Assembly: GCA_902363455.1 (NCBI GenBank)
Contig: CABJAC010000003.1
Location: forward strand, 62,001 to 126,000
DNA length: 64,000 nt
Direction of reading: 5' to 3'
Source: Caryophanales bacterium
GTDB taxonomy: Bacteria > Bacillota > Bacilli > Exiguobacteriales > Exiguobacteriaceae
Part shown: piece after piece, positions 394-58,880 of the stretch
Numbering within the stretch: the first letter of the stretch is position 1
Layout: every line of letters begins with the position of its first letter
Program-made: the position numbers and the translations under genes
The notes under the pieces: generated by a model
Told to the model about the DNA's origin: nothing
What the model saw: only the letters and a program-made list of their open reading frames with translations
The model's database searches: none

Positions 394-1263
394 TTAATGG
401 TCGCGCTTGACGACAAAGTCGAGTAGTTCCTTAAGCGGCGTTGCTTCAACGGAAAGAGCTTCAATCGCTTCATTCGCCGCCGCCACTTGTGCTGCAAGCG
501 CCCGCTTTGCACCATCGAGACCAAGTAACTTCGGATAAGTCGCTTTATCGTTTCCTTCATCGCTCCCGACAGGCTTTCCGATTTTTTCTGCATCTCCGGT
601 CACATCGAGGATGTCATCTTGAATTTGGAACGCAATCCCGAGATGACGTCCATATCGTTTCAAATGGGTAATATCCGTGTCCGTGACTTGTGCCAAAATC
701 CCGCCTGCTTCCACTGCGAAGATTAACAATGCGCCTGTTTTCCGGCGATGGATCGACTCTAATTCCTGAGCATCATTAATGCCACCGCGTTCGCCGAGCA
801 TATCGTCGAGTTGTCCGCCCACCATTCCAGCAGCACCTGCTGCTGTTGCCAGGCGTTCAACGAGCTTCACTTTGACTTCTGCCGATGCCTGCGTTTCTAG
901 TAAACATGTAAAAGCGTTTGTCAGCAAGGCATCGCCTGCAAGAATCGCCGTTGCTTCGTCAAACTGGATGTGATTGGTTGGTCGACCACGTCGCATATCA
1001 TCATCATCCATCGCTGGTAAGTCATCGTGGATCAGCGAGTATGTATGAATCATCTCAAGTGCTGCGGCTGTCGCATCCCCGTTTTTTCGATCTATTCCGT
1101 ATGCGTCAAGAACGGCATAAATCAAAGCCGGACGAACACGTTTCCCGCCGGCATCAAGCGAATAGCGCATCGCTTCCCGTAAACGATCCGGTGCTTCGAG
1201 ACGGTTCATAAAGGTTTCCAGTGCTTGTTCGACTTGCGTTTTCCACTCTGTTAAGACAATCAT
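394..1263 (-). CDS. ispA: Farnesyl diphosphate synthase (geranyltranstransferase)
   Basis: Trans-prenyltransferase that condenses DMAPP/GPP with IPP to make farnesyl diphosphate, the precursor of undecaprenyl and quinone chains. The 289-residue protein has both aspartate-rich motifs: DDLPAMDDDD (first Asp pair at 80-81, Asp86) and DDILD at 216-220, plus the GGKRVRP IPP-binding motif near 39-45. Length is normal for the family. The start overlaps the end of xseB by four bases, so translation is probably coupled. It closes the nusB-folD-xseA-xseB-ispA run and is followed by a terminator. dxs lies just downstream and ispG lies elsewhere in this window. Confidence 0.96.
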   Translation of the reverse strand: MIVLTEWKTQVEQALETFMNRLEAPDRLREAMRYSLDAGGKRVRPALIYAVLDAYGIDRKNGDATAAALEMIHTYSLIHDDLPAMDDDDMRRGRPTNHIQFDEATAILAGDALLTNAFTCLLETQASAEVKVKLVERLATAAGAAGMVGGQLDDMLGERGGINDAQELESIHRRKTGALLIFAVEAGGILAQVTDTDITHLKRYGRHLGIAFQIQDDILDVTGDAEKIGKPVGSDEGNDKATYPKLLGLDGAKRALAAQVAAANEAIEALSVEATPLKELLDFVVKRDH

Positions 1264-21262: not shown

Positions 21263-21303
21263 TATTGCTCCTCCTCTCAAAATATGCGCTTCTCATTACA
21301 GAA

Positions 21304-47154: not shown

Positions 47155-47724
47155 GTGAAAATCGGAATTGATATTGATGGAACAATCACTCATCCTTCTT
47201 CGTGCTTTAATTATATGAACAAATATCTCGGGACATCGATTGATTTTGAGATGGCCTCTGAATACGAGCTTCATACCTATACGGACATGGAGCAAATCGA
47301 GTTTTGGGAATTCATGGTCAAGTCAGGTCATGAACTCGGTATCTATCGTGAATCAATCCCACAAGAACTCGTCAAACAGCATCTGTGGGCGTTACGTAAA
47401 CAGTATGACCTTCACTATGTGACGGCGCGATCGGAAATCGTCCGCCCCGTGACGGAAGAATGGATCAAACAACATGAGTTGCCACTTGATTCGTTAATCA
47501 TGACAGGCTCTCACGATAAAGTACAAGTCGTTCGTGATTTGTCGCTCGACCTCTTCATGGAAGACCGGCTTGAAAATGCGATTCAAATTGCGGAAGACAC
47601 GTCGATTCCGGTCATCTTGTTTGATGCACCGTACAATCGACGTCCCCTTCCTGAAAACATCGTCCGCGTGTCTTCTTGGGATGAGGCTGTTCAAACCATT
47701 CATAAATTTGCACCGATTCGTTAA
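47155..47724 (+). CDS. HAD-superfamily 5'-nucleotidase (YqfW/NT5C type)
   Basis: 189 residues from a GTG at 47155 (GGTGATG upstream). The HAD nucleophile motif is GIDIDGT (Asp6, Asp8); YVTARSE (motif II), and DLFMEDRLENAIQIA (motif IV acidic pair) follow. NT5C-family enzymes dephosphorylate (deoxy)ribonucleoside 5'-monophosphates; substrate is not proven here. Same order after ispG as in B. subtilis. Confidence 0.87.
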   Translation: MKIGIDIDGTITHPSSCFNYMNKYLGTSIDFEMASEYELHTYTDMEQIEFWEFMVKSGHELGIYRESIPQELVKQHLWALRKQYDLHYVTARSEIVRPVTEEWIKQHELPLDSLIMTGSHDKVQVVRDLSLDLFMEDRLENAIQIAEDTSIPVILFDAPYNRRPLPENIVRVSSWDEAVQTIHKFAPIR

Positions 47725-47750
47725 AAACAGCCGTCACAGCTGTTTTTTTA
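47723..47750 (+). terminator. Terminator after yqfW
   Basis: AAACAGC and GCTGTTT with a seven-base loop, followed by TTTTTA on the plus strand; the stem overlaps the stop codon. Confidence 0.8.
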
Positions 47751-47764
47751 TTTTATCAAAATCA

Positions 47765-48170
47765 GCCGAGAATACTCCCACTTCTAAACGTTCAGGGTGA
47801 AACCCTAGCGCAAGTGGGAGATGAATCGTCTTCGGGTAAAGAGTGTCTTGCGACACGTCAATTGCCCGACACTCTTGGTTTGAAAGAAATTAAAATCAGG
47901 AATAAAAAAAGTCATGTTCTTTGAAAACTGAAGATATAGGGTTGTGACAGGAAGTTCGTCTGTCACGTAAAATCTTCAACGTTCACCTTGCGGATGACCG
48001 AAGTAGCGAAAACCAAGCAGAGTAGGCCTCCGCATAAAAGAAACGGACAAGATCAACGTTCAACCGTCGGGACGATGGGGTTAGCCTGATAAATTTTTGA
48101 CCGCTAGGTTGAATAACTCAGGAATCTTCCACCTCTTAGCGAAGCGTAGGTGGAGGTAGTTCAATTGTAT
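47765..48170 (+). mobile_element. Degraded IS200/IS605-type element: TnpB relic with two terminal-hairpin modules
   Basis: This 531-base gap (47725-48255) contains no intact gene. It holds, in order: a hairpin module CTCCCACTT...AAGTGGGAG (47775-47820) with an inner AGGGT-GAA-ACCCT stem, preceded by CCGAGAAT; a structured stretch 47832-47875; a Firmicute rrn-leader-like TTCTTTGAAAACTGAA (47918-47933); a GTGACAG/CTGTCAC hairpin (47944-47966); a TnpB C-terminal relic; and a second hairpin CTTCCACCT...AGGTGGAGG (48126-48156) preceded by CTCAGGAAT and ending GTAGTTCAA. Both hairpin modules look like the right ends of tnpB elements, which double as omega-RNA 3' ends. No tnpA and no RuvC catalytic part remain. 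Confidence 0.6.
47940..48089 (+). pseudogene. TnpB C-terminal relic
   Basis: The frame open from 47940 to the TGA at 48087-48089 (49 codons, with an internal ATG at 47994) ends PHKRNGQDQRSTVGTMGLA. A Ser-Thr-Val-Gly-Thr-(Thr)-Gly-(Leu/Ile)-Ala end is a pattern I remember from C-termini of TnpB/OrfB transposon nucleases. The RuvC core and zinc finger are absent, so it cannot be active. It sits directly before the terminal hairpin, the native position of a tnpB 3' end. Confidence 0.55.
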
Positions 48171-48255
48171 GTTTTGATTCGAGTATCGTACACTTGTAGA
48201 GGATTCCCATATTATCTCATTTCCAATATTTTTTTGAATGTGAAAGGACTTTATT

Positions 48256-49332
48256 ATGCTGACGACTTTAAATATTTTTTTCCTTAATATCTGCATCATT
48301 TTTCTTATCTTGTCTTTCACCTTTTATTTATTACGTAACCGGCTTCCGATTCAGCAAGATTCGAAGCTTTCGACCCGATTGTATTTTGGTTTCGCTAATG
48401 GACTAACTGGGATTTTATTGATACATAATTCCATTATAATTAACGGTGCTTTCATCGATTTGCGCCTATTACCGCTCGCCTTATCTGCTTTATACGGCGG
48501 ACCGGTCAGCATCGTGACGACCGGCTTTTTGCTCATGTTTTACCGGATCGTCATCGATACAGGAGAATCGATGACAGCACTACAAACTTCGATTCTCACA
48601 CTGATTAGTTTTATCATTCTCGTTCTGCTTTGCACACGCTTCATTAAACATAAAGCGGCTCTGTTTACTGTCATCGTCACGATTGGTTCCTTGCTTGTCT
48701 TGATTCGTATGTTGATGAGCGATACTGCATTTCAGGCCTGGCAATTGATTTTTGCTCCTTATTTTTTAATTACGATTCTTGCTTCACTTCTGTTTTATCG
48801 CCTGTCCCGTATGTTGCAGGATCACTTCGTCCTGTATTCCTACCAGTCGTATTTGGCGACAACCGATCAGCTGACACGATTGGCCAATCGTCATGTTATC
48901 ATGGATAAAGTTGCGACGTTGGAACAGGAAAGAGCACCGTGGGGTGTCATTTTATTTGATTTAGACTATTTCAAGTCAGTCAACGACCAGTACGGTCATG
49001 CCGTCGGAGATGCGGTCTTACGTCACTTCTCTGTTTTATTGACACAAGAATGCCCACAGGATACAACAGTCGGACGTTACGGCGGGGAAGAGTTCATTGC
49101 CATCTTACCCAATACTTTGCGTGTATCACCCGACCAATTAGCGGAACAAATTGTCGCAACAGTAATGAGGACACCTTTCGTCATGCAGGATCACGCACTT
49201 GAAATCACTGTCTCGGCGGGCGTCGCCTATGCCGGGCATCAATCCGCCAGTGTGGTCTTTAAACAGGCGGATACAGCCTTGTATGCCGCAAAGCAAAATG
49301 GACGGAATCAATCCTATGTCTATACCAGTTAA
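48256..49332 (+). CDS. Diguanylate cyclase with 5TMR-LYT-type membrane sensor
   Basis: Makes c-di-GMP. 358 residues: five to six N-terminal membrane helices (to about 190) with NGLTGILLIH and RLLPLALSALYGGP, like the 5TM-5TMR_LYT sensor domain, then a GGDEF domain with LTRLANRHV, FDLDYFKSVNDQYGH and the active loop RYGGEEF. The site is intact; no RxxD inhibitory site is obvious before GGEEF. AAAGGACTTTATT precedes the ATG. Starts 86 bases after the transposon scar and converges with a c-di-GMP phosphodiesterase. Confidence 0.92.
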   Translation: MLTTLNIFFLNICIIFLILSFTFYLLRNRLPIQQDSKLSTRLYFGFANGLTGILLIHNSIIINGAFIDLRLLPLALSALYGGPVSIVTTGFLLMFYRIVIDTGESMTALQTSILTLISFIILVLLCTRFIKHKAALFTVIVTIGSLLVLIRMLMSDTAFQAWQLIFAPYFLITILASLLFYRLSRMLQDHFVLYSYQSYLATTDQLTRLANRHVIMDKVATLEQERAPWGVILFDLDYFKSVNDQYGHAVGDAVLRHFSVLLTQECPQDTTVGRYGGEEFIAILPNTLRVSPDQLAEQIVATVMRTPFVMQDHALEITVSAGVAYAGHQSASVVFKQADTALYAAKQNGRNQSYVYTS

Positions 49333-49364: not shown

Positions 49365-49400
49365 CACAAATGGAAGCCGCATCATTCTGCCGCTTCCGTT
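49365..49400. terminator. Hairpin between convergent c-di-GMP genes
   Basis: ACAAATGGAAGCCGCA and TGCCGCTTCCGTTTGT pair with two mismatches over a six-base loop, overlapping the last codons of the EAL gene. Likely terminates both; T-runs are weak. Confidence 0.6.
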
Positions 49401-51226
49401 TGTTTGGTTTTCAATAAACAAATGATTTCTTCCAGCTTAACGGGCTTTGCAAAAAAATAACCTTGGAATAAGTGAATACCAAGATTCTTCGCAATCCGTA
49501 CTTCCTCTCCCGTCTCGACACCTTCAACGATACACTCGACATGCATCGACCGACTGAGCTGAAAAATGGATTCCAAGATGGACTGGCGTTTCTCAGACTC
49601 TTCAATCTGCTCGATGAATTGTTTAGGTACTTTTAACTGACGAAGCGGCAATAACCGTTCAAGCACATGGTAAGAAGCATGACCTGTTCCGAAATCATCC
49701 AATGAAACCGGAAAATCAAGGGTTTTGATCCGGCGCAGCGCTCTTAAAATCGGTTGACTCTCAAAATCAAGTGATTGACTTTCCGTAATCTCGATTTTAA
49801 TTTGTTTTGGCTTGAGGGAATACTTTAGCAACATCCGTTCAATAAACGGCATGAAGGATTCGTGCGTCAGTTGGCGGGGTGACACGTTGACCGACAGGCT
49901 GAAATCATCCGGAACAAGATCAATCAGTTGTTTCCTCGTCTTACATCCTTCTTCAAAGATCCATTCCCCCAGACGAATGATCAAATCACTTTTTTCGGCA
50001 ATGGGGATGAATACTGTTGGTCGACCAGCCCCTGGAATTTTACTGTTCCAACGTACGAGGGCTTCAAGACCCACAAAGCGATCCTGATCAGAGTCGTATT
50101 GCAACTGATAGACAAGATAAAAGTCGCGATTGACGTCCGCACGAGATAACGCTTTTGCTGCTTCAACCCGAAGCGCTTGTTCCGCCCTCCACTCCCGATT
50201 CAAACACATGACTTTTTCTGCGTTGCGGATACTTTCAGGAAATGCTGATGTAATCTGTTGGACCCGTTTCGTCACAGTAGCTTGATCAACGTCACCGTCA
50301 TCTATGACGATGTATAAGTTGACGTAGATCTGATGCCGATCCACTTGGTAAGGTGCAGACATCTGATGGCTGAGCCGTTCCATCTCTTCTTGACACGAGA
50401 CCCCCGGTGGTTTATCCATTACGACGACAAGTGTCCCGCCTTCGACACGAACCATTTCGTAGTAAGGTGGCAACAAATTATTTAAACGTTCGACACAATC
50501 AAATAATACCTTTTCTTGAATCTCCTCACCAAAATAACGGGCAAGCTCATAGTAATTTTCAAGCTGAACACCTACCAGTAAGAGGGATTGATGCTTTTCC
50601 GCCCCAAACCTTTCTTCTAGTCCATGCATATTCAAGAGTTGTGTTTGCGCATCATGTCGGGCGGCATGATGTAACTGGTCTGCCATCATTTGAAGGTGAC
50701 GTAAATGACGAAGATGCAAATGATTGATGACAAAAGCGATGCAAATAGCAATCGCAATCATCCCCAGTCTCGCGTAATGGTCGGTCGGATCAATTTCGAC
50801 CGTTACTTTCGTTGCCCGAAACATCACATATCCGTTCGTCGCGACGGTAATGACGACGGCATACCATATCATAATCCGGTCATAGGCAATCAATGCAATC
50901 ATTAAAAATAAAAAGCAACTTGCCCAGACGGTAACTGCAGCATATGGTAAAAGACTGATGGACGTAATCGGAATCACTAAGAACATAATAGATAATAAAT
51001 GCGATTGATAACGATTCGTCAAACGACTACGGCTAATCCATAAAGTCAAAAGACCTAATGCCAACAAAATCATAACGAGCGTCGTGCGACTTAAATAGGC
51101 ACTCTGCATCGTTTCATCAGTCGTCATCCAAAAAATCAACGCTCCGGCACTCATGGAAAAAAATGAAAAGTTCCCAATCCACCGCTGTTGATTGCGAACA
51201 ATCTCGTTTACTGTTTTAACGGGCAT
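49382..51226 (-). CDS. Membrane GGDEF-EAL protein, probable c-di-GMP phosphodiesterase
   Basis: 614 residues: about six membrane helices (20-175), a degenerate GGDEF domain (VEGGTLVVV where the loop should be) and an EAL domain from about 365. EAL residues are intact: GLEALVRW, VNVSPRQL, IEITES, LDDFGTGHASY, the catalytic Lys in LKVPK (canonical KID altered to KVP), IVEGVE and FQGYFF. So hydrolysis of c-di-GMP is expected while synthesis is not. AAAGGAGGAGACAG precedes the ATG. It faces the diguanylate cyclase tail to tail. Confidence 0.9.
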   Translation of the reverse strand: MPVKTVNEIVRNQQRWIGNFSFFSMSAGALIFWMTTDETMQSAYLSRTTLVMILLALGLLTLWISRSRLTNRYQSHLLSIMFLVIPITSISLLPYAAVTVWASCFLFLMIALIAYDRIMIWYAVVITVATNGYVMFRATKVTVEIDPTDHYARLGMIAIAICIAFVINHLHLRHLRHLQMMADQLHHAARHDAQTQLLNMHGLEERFGAEKHQSLLLVGVQLENYYELARYFGEEIQEKVLFDCVERLNNLLPPYYEMVRVEGGTLVVVMDKPPGVSCQEEMERLSHQMSAPYQVDRHQIYVNLYIVIDDGDVDQATVTKRVQQITSAFPESIRNAEKVMCLNREWRAEQALRVEAAKALSRADVNRDFYLVYQLQYDSDQDRFVGLEALVRWNSKIPGAGRPTVFIPIAEKSDLIIRLGEWIFEEGCKTRKQLIDLVPDDFSLSVNVSPRQLTHESFMPFIERMLLKYSLKPKQIKIEITESQSLDFESQPILRALRRIKTLDFPVSLDDFGTGHASYHVLERLLPLRQLKVPKQFIEQIEESEKRQSILESIFQLSRSMHVECIVEGVETGEEVRIAKNLGIHLFQGYFFAKPVKLEEIICLLKTKQTEAAE

Positions 51227-58877: not shown

Positions 58878-58880
58878 TCG

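Follow-up and report, generated by a model that had tools for sequence, protein, structure and literature searches.

IStrons are RNA-bearing mobile elements with IS605 ends. PATEs are said to have been described in Geobacillus by Meers and colleagues in 2023, and Altae-Tran and colleagues reportedly found in 2021 stand-alone omega-RNA loci of IscB, guide-RNA loci without a nuclease gene whose products are possibly used in trans. Besides rRNA operons, CRISPR arrays also have boxA leaders.

According to section 3.8 of PMC7290912, PATEs are often mobilised by a transposase acting in trans. Two further papers state that the guide of IS200/IS605 elements begins with the right-flanking base (PMC10711439) and that the last 16 nt of the ISDra2 RNA come from the flank (PMC8612924). 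boxA works with NusB/NusE according to PMC4807359, whose authors hold that at E. coli rRNA the Nus factors serve mainly another purpose than antitermination, and that folding is helped when boxA RNA is tethered to RNA polymerase.

A mobile element in a non-coding gap

The window, the whole stretch of 64,000 nucleotides analysed here, has its longest non-coding gap at 47725-48255 (531 nt without a sizeable gene), between a 5'-nucleotidase-like gene, NT5C, ending at 47724, and a GGDEF gene starting at 48256. An earlier note, made from the sequence alone, had singled out this gap. Its non-coding character was borne out. The note had called it the only long non-coding gap in 64 kb; it is the longest, and the ORF filter left two more, of 522 nt (at 21281) and 499 nt (at 58878), both holding small ORFs by eye. 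The gap contains a single intact mobile element of 408 nt (47757-48164, + strand) without a sizeable ORF, non-autonomous and of the IS200/IS605 tnpB type. The note's picture of a transposon graveyard, a dying relic, thus gives way to one multi-copy element.

Two hairpin modules, CTCCCACTT/AAGTGGGAG (47775-47783/47812-47820) and CTTCCACC/GGTGGAGG (48126-48133/48149-48156), are present as the note had described, together with GAGAAT and CAGGAAT motifs. The note took both modules for right ends standing side by side. This was ruled out, because in Bacillus phages and Exiguobacterium the first module stands upstream of tnpB and the other at its 3' end. The first is therefore the left end (LE, 47757-47835, + strand, containing the hairpin at 47775-47783/47812-47820), which is common to Exiguobacterium and Bacillus phage tnpB elements. 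The second is the right end (RE, 48059-48164, + strand, terminal hairpin 48126-48156), which corresponds to the TnpB omega-RNA scaffold. In all six copy-bearing Exiguobacterium genomes, LE and RE also occur about 1.3 kb apart with a TnpB domain between them, and a seventh genome (L031) provides an example of this LE-TnpB-RE arrangement. The Bacillus phages phiNIT1, KKP_4049 and SPG24 have the LE upstream of a tnpB that is 63-64% identical to the tnpB of L031. A long frame was present at three of the four TnpB loci inspected, each with D/E/D and zinc-finger motifs. The window RE is ~83-92% identical to the RE matches covering it in G001-G006, full copies excluded. A related LE was found directly upstream of the TnpA frame in some TnpA elements (G001, G003 and G005; 76-79% identity, one of them 95% over 38 nt).

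The RE begins with a tnpB relic, the nine last codons and the stop (STVGTMGLA-stop, 48060-48089), which the note had recognised before the second module. It resembles SSTVGTTGLA, the terminus of the intact Exiguobacterium TnpB in L031, and a relic at this place is what an overlap of the scaffold with the end of the gene would leave. The proposed IS200/IS605 tnpB origin is supported by relatives that have both ends, and the omega-RNA scaffold is retained while the nuclease gene is absent, as the note had said. The note's suggestion that the scaffold could serve a TnpB from elsewhere in the genome gains support from the same-ended tnpB elements in all six copy-bearing genomes. The note had named as contrary evidence a lack of shared ends in relatives or a match to a known unrelated RNA; both ends are common to relatives, and the Rfam matches lay at chance level.

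At least 15 near-full copies (86-96% identity, query 47750-48190) were found in 6 of 10 Exiguobacterium genomes, the search covering the genomes behind the orthologous loci and scoring only part of the candidates in three of the six copy-bearing ones. Partial copies (L038, L045 and shorter fragments) were also present. E. sibiricum 255-15 (G003) is among the carriers. We aligned the window copy with 16 others, namely 15 full copies and L038. The motif TTTAT, the presumed TAM (47752-47756, + strand), remains in the left flank as the insertion target; it stands before the window copy and all of the 16 others except L037, which has TTTAC. The window copy and 14 full copies begin with C and finish with GTTCAA; the fifteenth, L042, has GTTCAC at its end. 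Beyond TTTAT the flanks are unrelated except in L025 and L028, which share theirs and represent a single insertion present in two genomes.

Empty sites were found at orthologous loci. The window flanks joined at 47756|48165 aligned end to end with L001 (73.6% identity), L005 (69.8%) and L006 (71.5%). The left flank alone aligned in L008-L010, and the region appeared rearranged by eye in L002, L003, L004 and L007. Thus, the element has the traits of IS200/IS605 PATEs and MITEs: an LE and an RE with subterminal hairpins that match those of an autonomous-type element, insertion 3' of a fixed short motif without target duplication, and multiple copies without a transposase gene.

Several observations concern the surroundings of the insertion. 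By eye, the contents of this gap, next to the NT5C-like gene on its downstream side, vary in L002, L003 and L004: the first two have there an opposite-strand gene resembling the window gene at 49382-51226, and L004 has a different insertion with a transposase-like reading. The insertion point (window 47723-47756) is the T-rich tail of a terminator-like hairpin; phages L016 and L018, inspected by eye, show the same. Among the terminator-like sites listed for the + strand, none falls at 48165-48255, downstream of the element, so transcription of the element might continue into the GGDEF gene at 48256.

An RNA domain with a boxA-like motif

Between LE and RE, in place of tnpA/tnpB, lies a non-coding domain of ~158 nt (47902-48059, + strand), which had escaped the earlier reading. 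Its core was first noticed in elements of a Peribacillus and of a Bacillus plasmid. The domain was modelled as helices P1-P4 (model R1; the window copy, itself in the seed alignment, scores 147.5 bits). P2 (GAAGAT/ATCTTC, 47930-47977) encloses P3 (GTGACAG/CTGTCAC, 47944-47966), and P4 (47990-48033) carries a conserved loop, GCGAAAACCAAGC (48006-48018); all three are on the + strand and covary.

Covariation was evaluated in two alignments. In A2, 16 sequences with the P1-P4 helices drawn by hand, 80.8% of the paired cells formed pairs versus 66.0% after shuffling (reached by none of 500 shuffles), and slid controls lay far below. Double changes occurred in 23 of the 30 pairs, compared with 15.6 in shuffled alignments, and the covariation score was 0.432 versus 0.182 (0 of 500). 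RNAalifold recovered P2, P3 and most of P4 unaided. For the larger alignment, 93 chosen sources were searched with R1 and 92 matched; 86 of these entered a redundancy filter, which kept 54, and two without a boxA match were removed to leave 52 non-redundant loci. The 92 matches (89 distinct) form A3, in which, being aligned to the model and hence leaning toward its structure, 96.8% of cells paired in the P2 core, 98.0% in P3, 86.2% in the main part of P4 and 52.6% in P1. This last value makes the modelled P1 doubtful. Double changes affected every pair of the P2 core and P3 and seven of seven in the main part of P4, altogether 28 of 30 pairs against a shuffled mean of 25.0. The covariation score, a stronger measure than the pair count, was 0.493 versus 0.165 (0 of 500). 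As a single sequence, the domain alone is only modestly stable (z -1.90; 8 of 200). The fold of 47760-48180 is stabler than its shuffles (z -3.49; 0 of 100).

An Rfam search of the window gap (to E 5) returned only sub-threshold matches to STnc50 (E 1.9) and Ref70 (E 3.2, on the RE), and nothing was found on the domain in 50 further loci. The domain thus has no credible Rfam match and, if our reading is true, would be a widespread family of structured RNAs that Rfam does not contain. Ref70 (RF02841, an Enterococcus sRNA) spans the RE at 48058-48173 over its whole model, at chance level (17 bits, cut-off 115). A common AGGGACU...AGCCU...AGGAA pattern suggests that Ref70 may itself be a TnpB omega-RNA. 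The HEARO / IscB omega-RNA family, which we take to be RF02033, matched neither the gap nor the domain in the 50 further loci. The same scans yielded no group I intron in either place, so that a remnant of an IStron, a group I intron joined to an IS605 end, is scarcely credible here, even though IStrons likewise are IS605-ended and bear an RNA.

The domain starts at its 5' side with an unpaired, highly conserved stretch, where the 13-mer TCTTTGAAAACTG (47918-47930, + strand) has its sole exact copy in the window. We take this 13-mer to be a boxA. It was exact in 13 of the 52 loci and present with at most one mismatch in 35 of the 52, counts favoured by the fact that the loci were found with a model built on boxA-bearing sequences. 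Two other Bacilli genomes, G313 and G234, have the identical 13-mer in their rRNA leaders. The sequence TCTTTGAAAACTR occurs 14 times in G313: in two elements, ten rRNA-leader-like places and two others. The 16S start is visible in five of these ten places, and the rest are cut by contig ends or Ns. Rfam confirmed 16S next to L135 and found none in L126 and L130, which stop before it. Of 20 loci with a 16S start, 11 were examined, and in these the motif, or a variant of it, precedes 16S by 67-123 nt when up to 5 of 16 mismatches are tolerated. rRNA leaders of G331, G003, G035 and G235 (nine loci) match the 13-mer with 0-1 mismatch, and those of G338 match it poorly (three mismatches, two loci). 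A first pattern for the rRNA boxA, TTCTTTGAAAACTG, matched nothing but elements (in G003 and G001), since G003 has ACTTTGAAAACTG as its rRNA boxA. Some DNA hits look like rRNA spacers (L106 as read; L105, L107 and L109 by match position only). The motif thus has the sequence found in rRNA leaders of this group, and its presumed position near the 5' end of a transcript would make it an rRNA-type boxA.

A candidate promoter, TTGAAA-N17-TAAAAA (47880-47908, + strand), was recognised by eye. Its -10 is poor, and the window copy's own promoter looks weak: a consensus promoter scan did not list 47880-47908, and the only + strand site that it listed lay inside P3. That site (GTGACA-N18-TAAAAT) was rejected as a promoter, since its spacing cannot be general (in one subtype, L189, L190 and L196, P3 is lengthened by a large insertion) and P2/P3 show the covariation of an RNA. 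Among the 52 loci, 34 have a TAnnnT -10-like hexamer ending 6-20 nt upstream, compared with 4-19 in 16 control windows (mean 9.5) and at most 24 in 300 shuffles; this test was devised after the weak result for the full promoter was known. The full -35/-10 score was barely above controls (8.31 versus 7.60 shuffled and 7.19 upstream, n = 52).

R1 matched in 51 of 398 Bacilli genomes (E <= 0.001; at most seven candidates scored per genome), and BLAST with the domain core matched in 11 of 38 genomes of the Exiguobacterium order. In a draw across the phylum, R1 matched in 15 of 398 genomes, one of them G001 itself; apart from that of G001, the scores were lower. From this draw 19 regions were fetched and 18 searched. 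R1 rematched in all 18, and neither the RE model nor TnpB matched in any of them. The boxA-like stretch, P2/P3 and GUAAAA(U/C) were mostly kept in the 14 regions that we read. A viral scan with the loop motif gave no hits. The domain recurs with visibly different LE and RE types. A subtype (L189, L190, L196, L200 and L205) has the GCGAAAACCAAGC loop inside P3, not P4, and a different right-end type. In L191, an Rfam Bacillaceae-1 RNA (521-587, minus strand) lies directly downstream of the domain (601-712). Bacillaceae-1 also lies between boxA and 16S in the rRNA leader L135, a second rRNA-leader feature of the element family; none was found in a further 20 loci scanned.

Scaffold, presumed guide and possible partners in trans

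The RE model R2 and the RE alignment A4 each hold 14 sequences, seven of them tnpB-free copies. R2 matched 76 of the 93 sources (E <= 0.1). An intact scaffold lies directly 3' of the domain on the same strand, and an RE abutting or overlapping the domain model downstream was present at 75 of 92 domain loci (40 of 54 non-redundant; gaps -59 to +32) and unmatched at 17 of the 92. The window copy forms 22 of 22 scaffold pairs, so the fold of the cognate RE is kept. In A4, 96.8% of cells pair versus 87.4% after shuffling, and 11 pairs have double changes versus 5.4; none of 500 shuffles reached either value. In all 14 sequences, every cell of scaffold helices 1-3, which lie 5' of the terminal hairpin, is paired (100%). 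The would-be guide is the flank TTGTATGTTTTGATTCGAGT (48165-48184, + strand), placed by its position relative to the RE as in IS200/IS605. By this analogy, the window scaffold and flank would act as a TnpB-loaded guide RNA. Conservation of the RE alone is no proof of such use, because transposition needs the RE in cis anyway. What argues for guide-RNA use is that helices 1-3, ahead of the terminal hairpin, are preserved.

This evidence bears on an alternative in which the domain is a functional RNA cargo in its own right. It might, for example, regulate or titrate a host factor such as NusB/S10, or stabilise the transcript; the RE would then be kept only for TnpA in cis, and no omega-RNA would be made. 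Recognition by TnpA alone would preserve the terminal hairpin, and boxA with P2/P3 persists in distant genomes without an RE-model match. We nevertheless regard this alternative as unlikely, given that helices 1-3 are kept even in the seven tnpB-free sequences of A4, that an RE of the same type follows directly at 75 of the 92 loci, and that TnpB was present in every one of the 38 positive genomes examined.

A tnpB (frame of at least 60 residues, gene-like) adjoins one of the 92 loci checked (L175). This check covered 91 domain-match loci and L104, mostly with a reach of 0.6-1.5 kb per side, so that genes farther out or very distant TnpBs could escape it. Weak TnpB hits in L050 and L071 were discarded, as the LE itself had been read as protein. 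When the domain was sought within tnpB-coding elements, only one composite was found (L175/L237). In L237 (G235:C1:3086500-3089500), a long tnpB frame stands directly behind a complete LE-domain-RE, an arrangement that may be intermediate between RNA-only elements and those bearing tnpB.

TnpB (PF07282) was detected in 38 of 38 domain-positive genomes examined versus 16 of 22 domain-negative ones, and TnpA (PF01797) in 30 of 38 (not detected in the other eight) versus 11 of 22, in a comparison confounded by genome sets that were hand-chosen and related by descent. The 38 positives are the 51 genomes minus 13 that were dropped (best E 1.9e-7 to 7.8e-4; G011 at 1.3e-10). By analogy with PATEs, the element would be mobilised in trans by TnpA. 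Genome G338 has 37 RE places, the best 15 of which are 98-100% identical in the RE, all carry the domain and have no TnpB hit within ~1.5 kb. This is a recent burst of the RNA-only element in G338; the burst loci are L238, L242 and L245-L257.

Could the element be a dead relic, internally deleted and functionless, whose copies are similar through recent ancestry alone? It encodes no protein, the z of the domain alone is only -1.90, and derivatives consisting of ends only, the PATEs, are a known product of IS200/IS605 according to PMC7290912. Such a relic is contradicted by the covariation in A3 (28 of 30 pairs with double changes and a score about three times that of shuffled alignments, over 89 distinct sequences), the many insertion sites, the near-identical burst in G338 and the recurrence of the domain with different LE and RE types, and we consider it very improbable.

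We propose that the locus is probably a stand-alone, boxA-led omega-RNA gene on a non-autonomous IS200/IS605 element, served in trans by resident TnpB and TnpA. The protein genes of an IS200/IS605 element would have been replaced by an RNA gene, and RNA polymerase would start immediately before the domain. By analogy with rRNA, boxA would bind NusB/S10 and change elongation: it would load an rRNA-type NusB/S10 antitermination (or RNA-tethering) complex, with which the untranslated, hairpin-rich transcript could be completed and folded. The 3' part of the transcript and the flanking guide would form an omega-RNA for use in trans by the TnpB of a full-length cousin. TnpA supplied in trans would excise the element, and TnpB would re-cut the empty donor site, so that the element is retained there after excision. 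The element itself, its mobility and the fold of its RNA are established; transcription, antitermination and TnpB loading are the steps that we infer.

A variant of this scheme, fairly unlikely in our estimation, has boxA tether the nascent 5' end to RNA polymerase for folding or processing, as proposed for rRNA, with no role in antitermination. The boxA of the element is 5' of the folded RNA, and the argument for E. coli rRNA in PMC4807359 points the same way. P1, which would close the domain, is weak, which speaks against tethering.

More broadly, and only tentatively, the boxA-led omega-RNA gene may exemplify a protein-free class of mobile elements across Bacillota, consisting of a promoter, an rRNA-type boxA with a new domain recruiting the rRNA transcription machinery, and a TnpB omega-RNA. 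Such elements would parasitise the host machinery for rRNA elongation as well as the TnpA/TnpB of their autonomous cousins, and the domain would move between omega-RNA types as TnpB lineages change. If our reading is true, an omega-RNA can exist apart from tnpB as an independent gene, and boxA-led transcription extends beyond rRNA, phage and CRISPR units. The element would then be a natural design for omega-RNA expression, and environmental bacteria would hold ready sets of TnpB, trans omega-RNA and native target for studying how RNA-only transposons survive via guide RNAs.

Comparison with known systems

A literature search that covered few subscription papers returned no boxA-led or stand-alone TnpB omega-RNA element, and part of the system may already be described. 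The IscB stand-alone loci are alike in being guide-RNA loci without a nuclease gene, but they involve another nuclease and another RNA. According to PMC8612924, the omega-RNA (reRNA) of ISDra2-type TnpB likewise has an RE-derived scaffold followed by a guide from the flank, with a short fixed motif upstream. In autonomous relatives the scaffold overlaps the tnpB 3' end, whereas here it forms the 3' part of a tnpB-free unit. The rRNA leader (PMC4807359) is similar in that its boxA stands close to the 5' end of a long, structured RNA that is not translated; here, in contrast, boxA is on a mobile element and coupled to P2/P3/P4. PATEs and MITEs of IS200/IS605 share with the element the possession of IS ends only, the absence of tnpA and the retention of only a tnpB tail. 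Unlike them, this element is filled by a covarying boxA-led domain with a promoter-like start, recurring in many genomes. As a mobile element it is thus a PATE/MITE of IS200/IS605, a known kind, and the conserved boxA-led domain is the new part.
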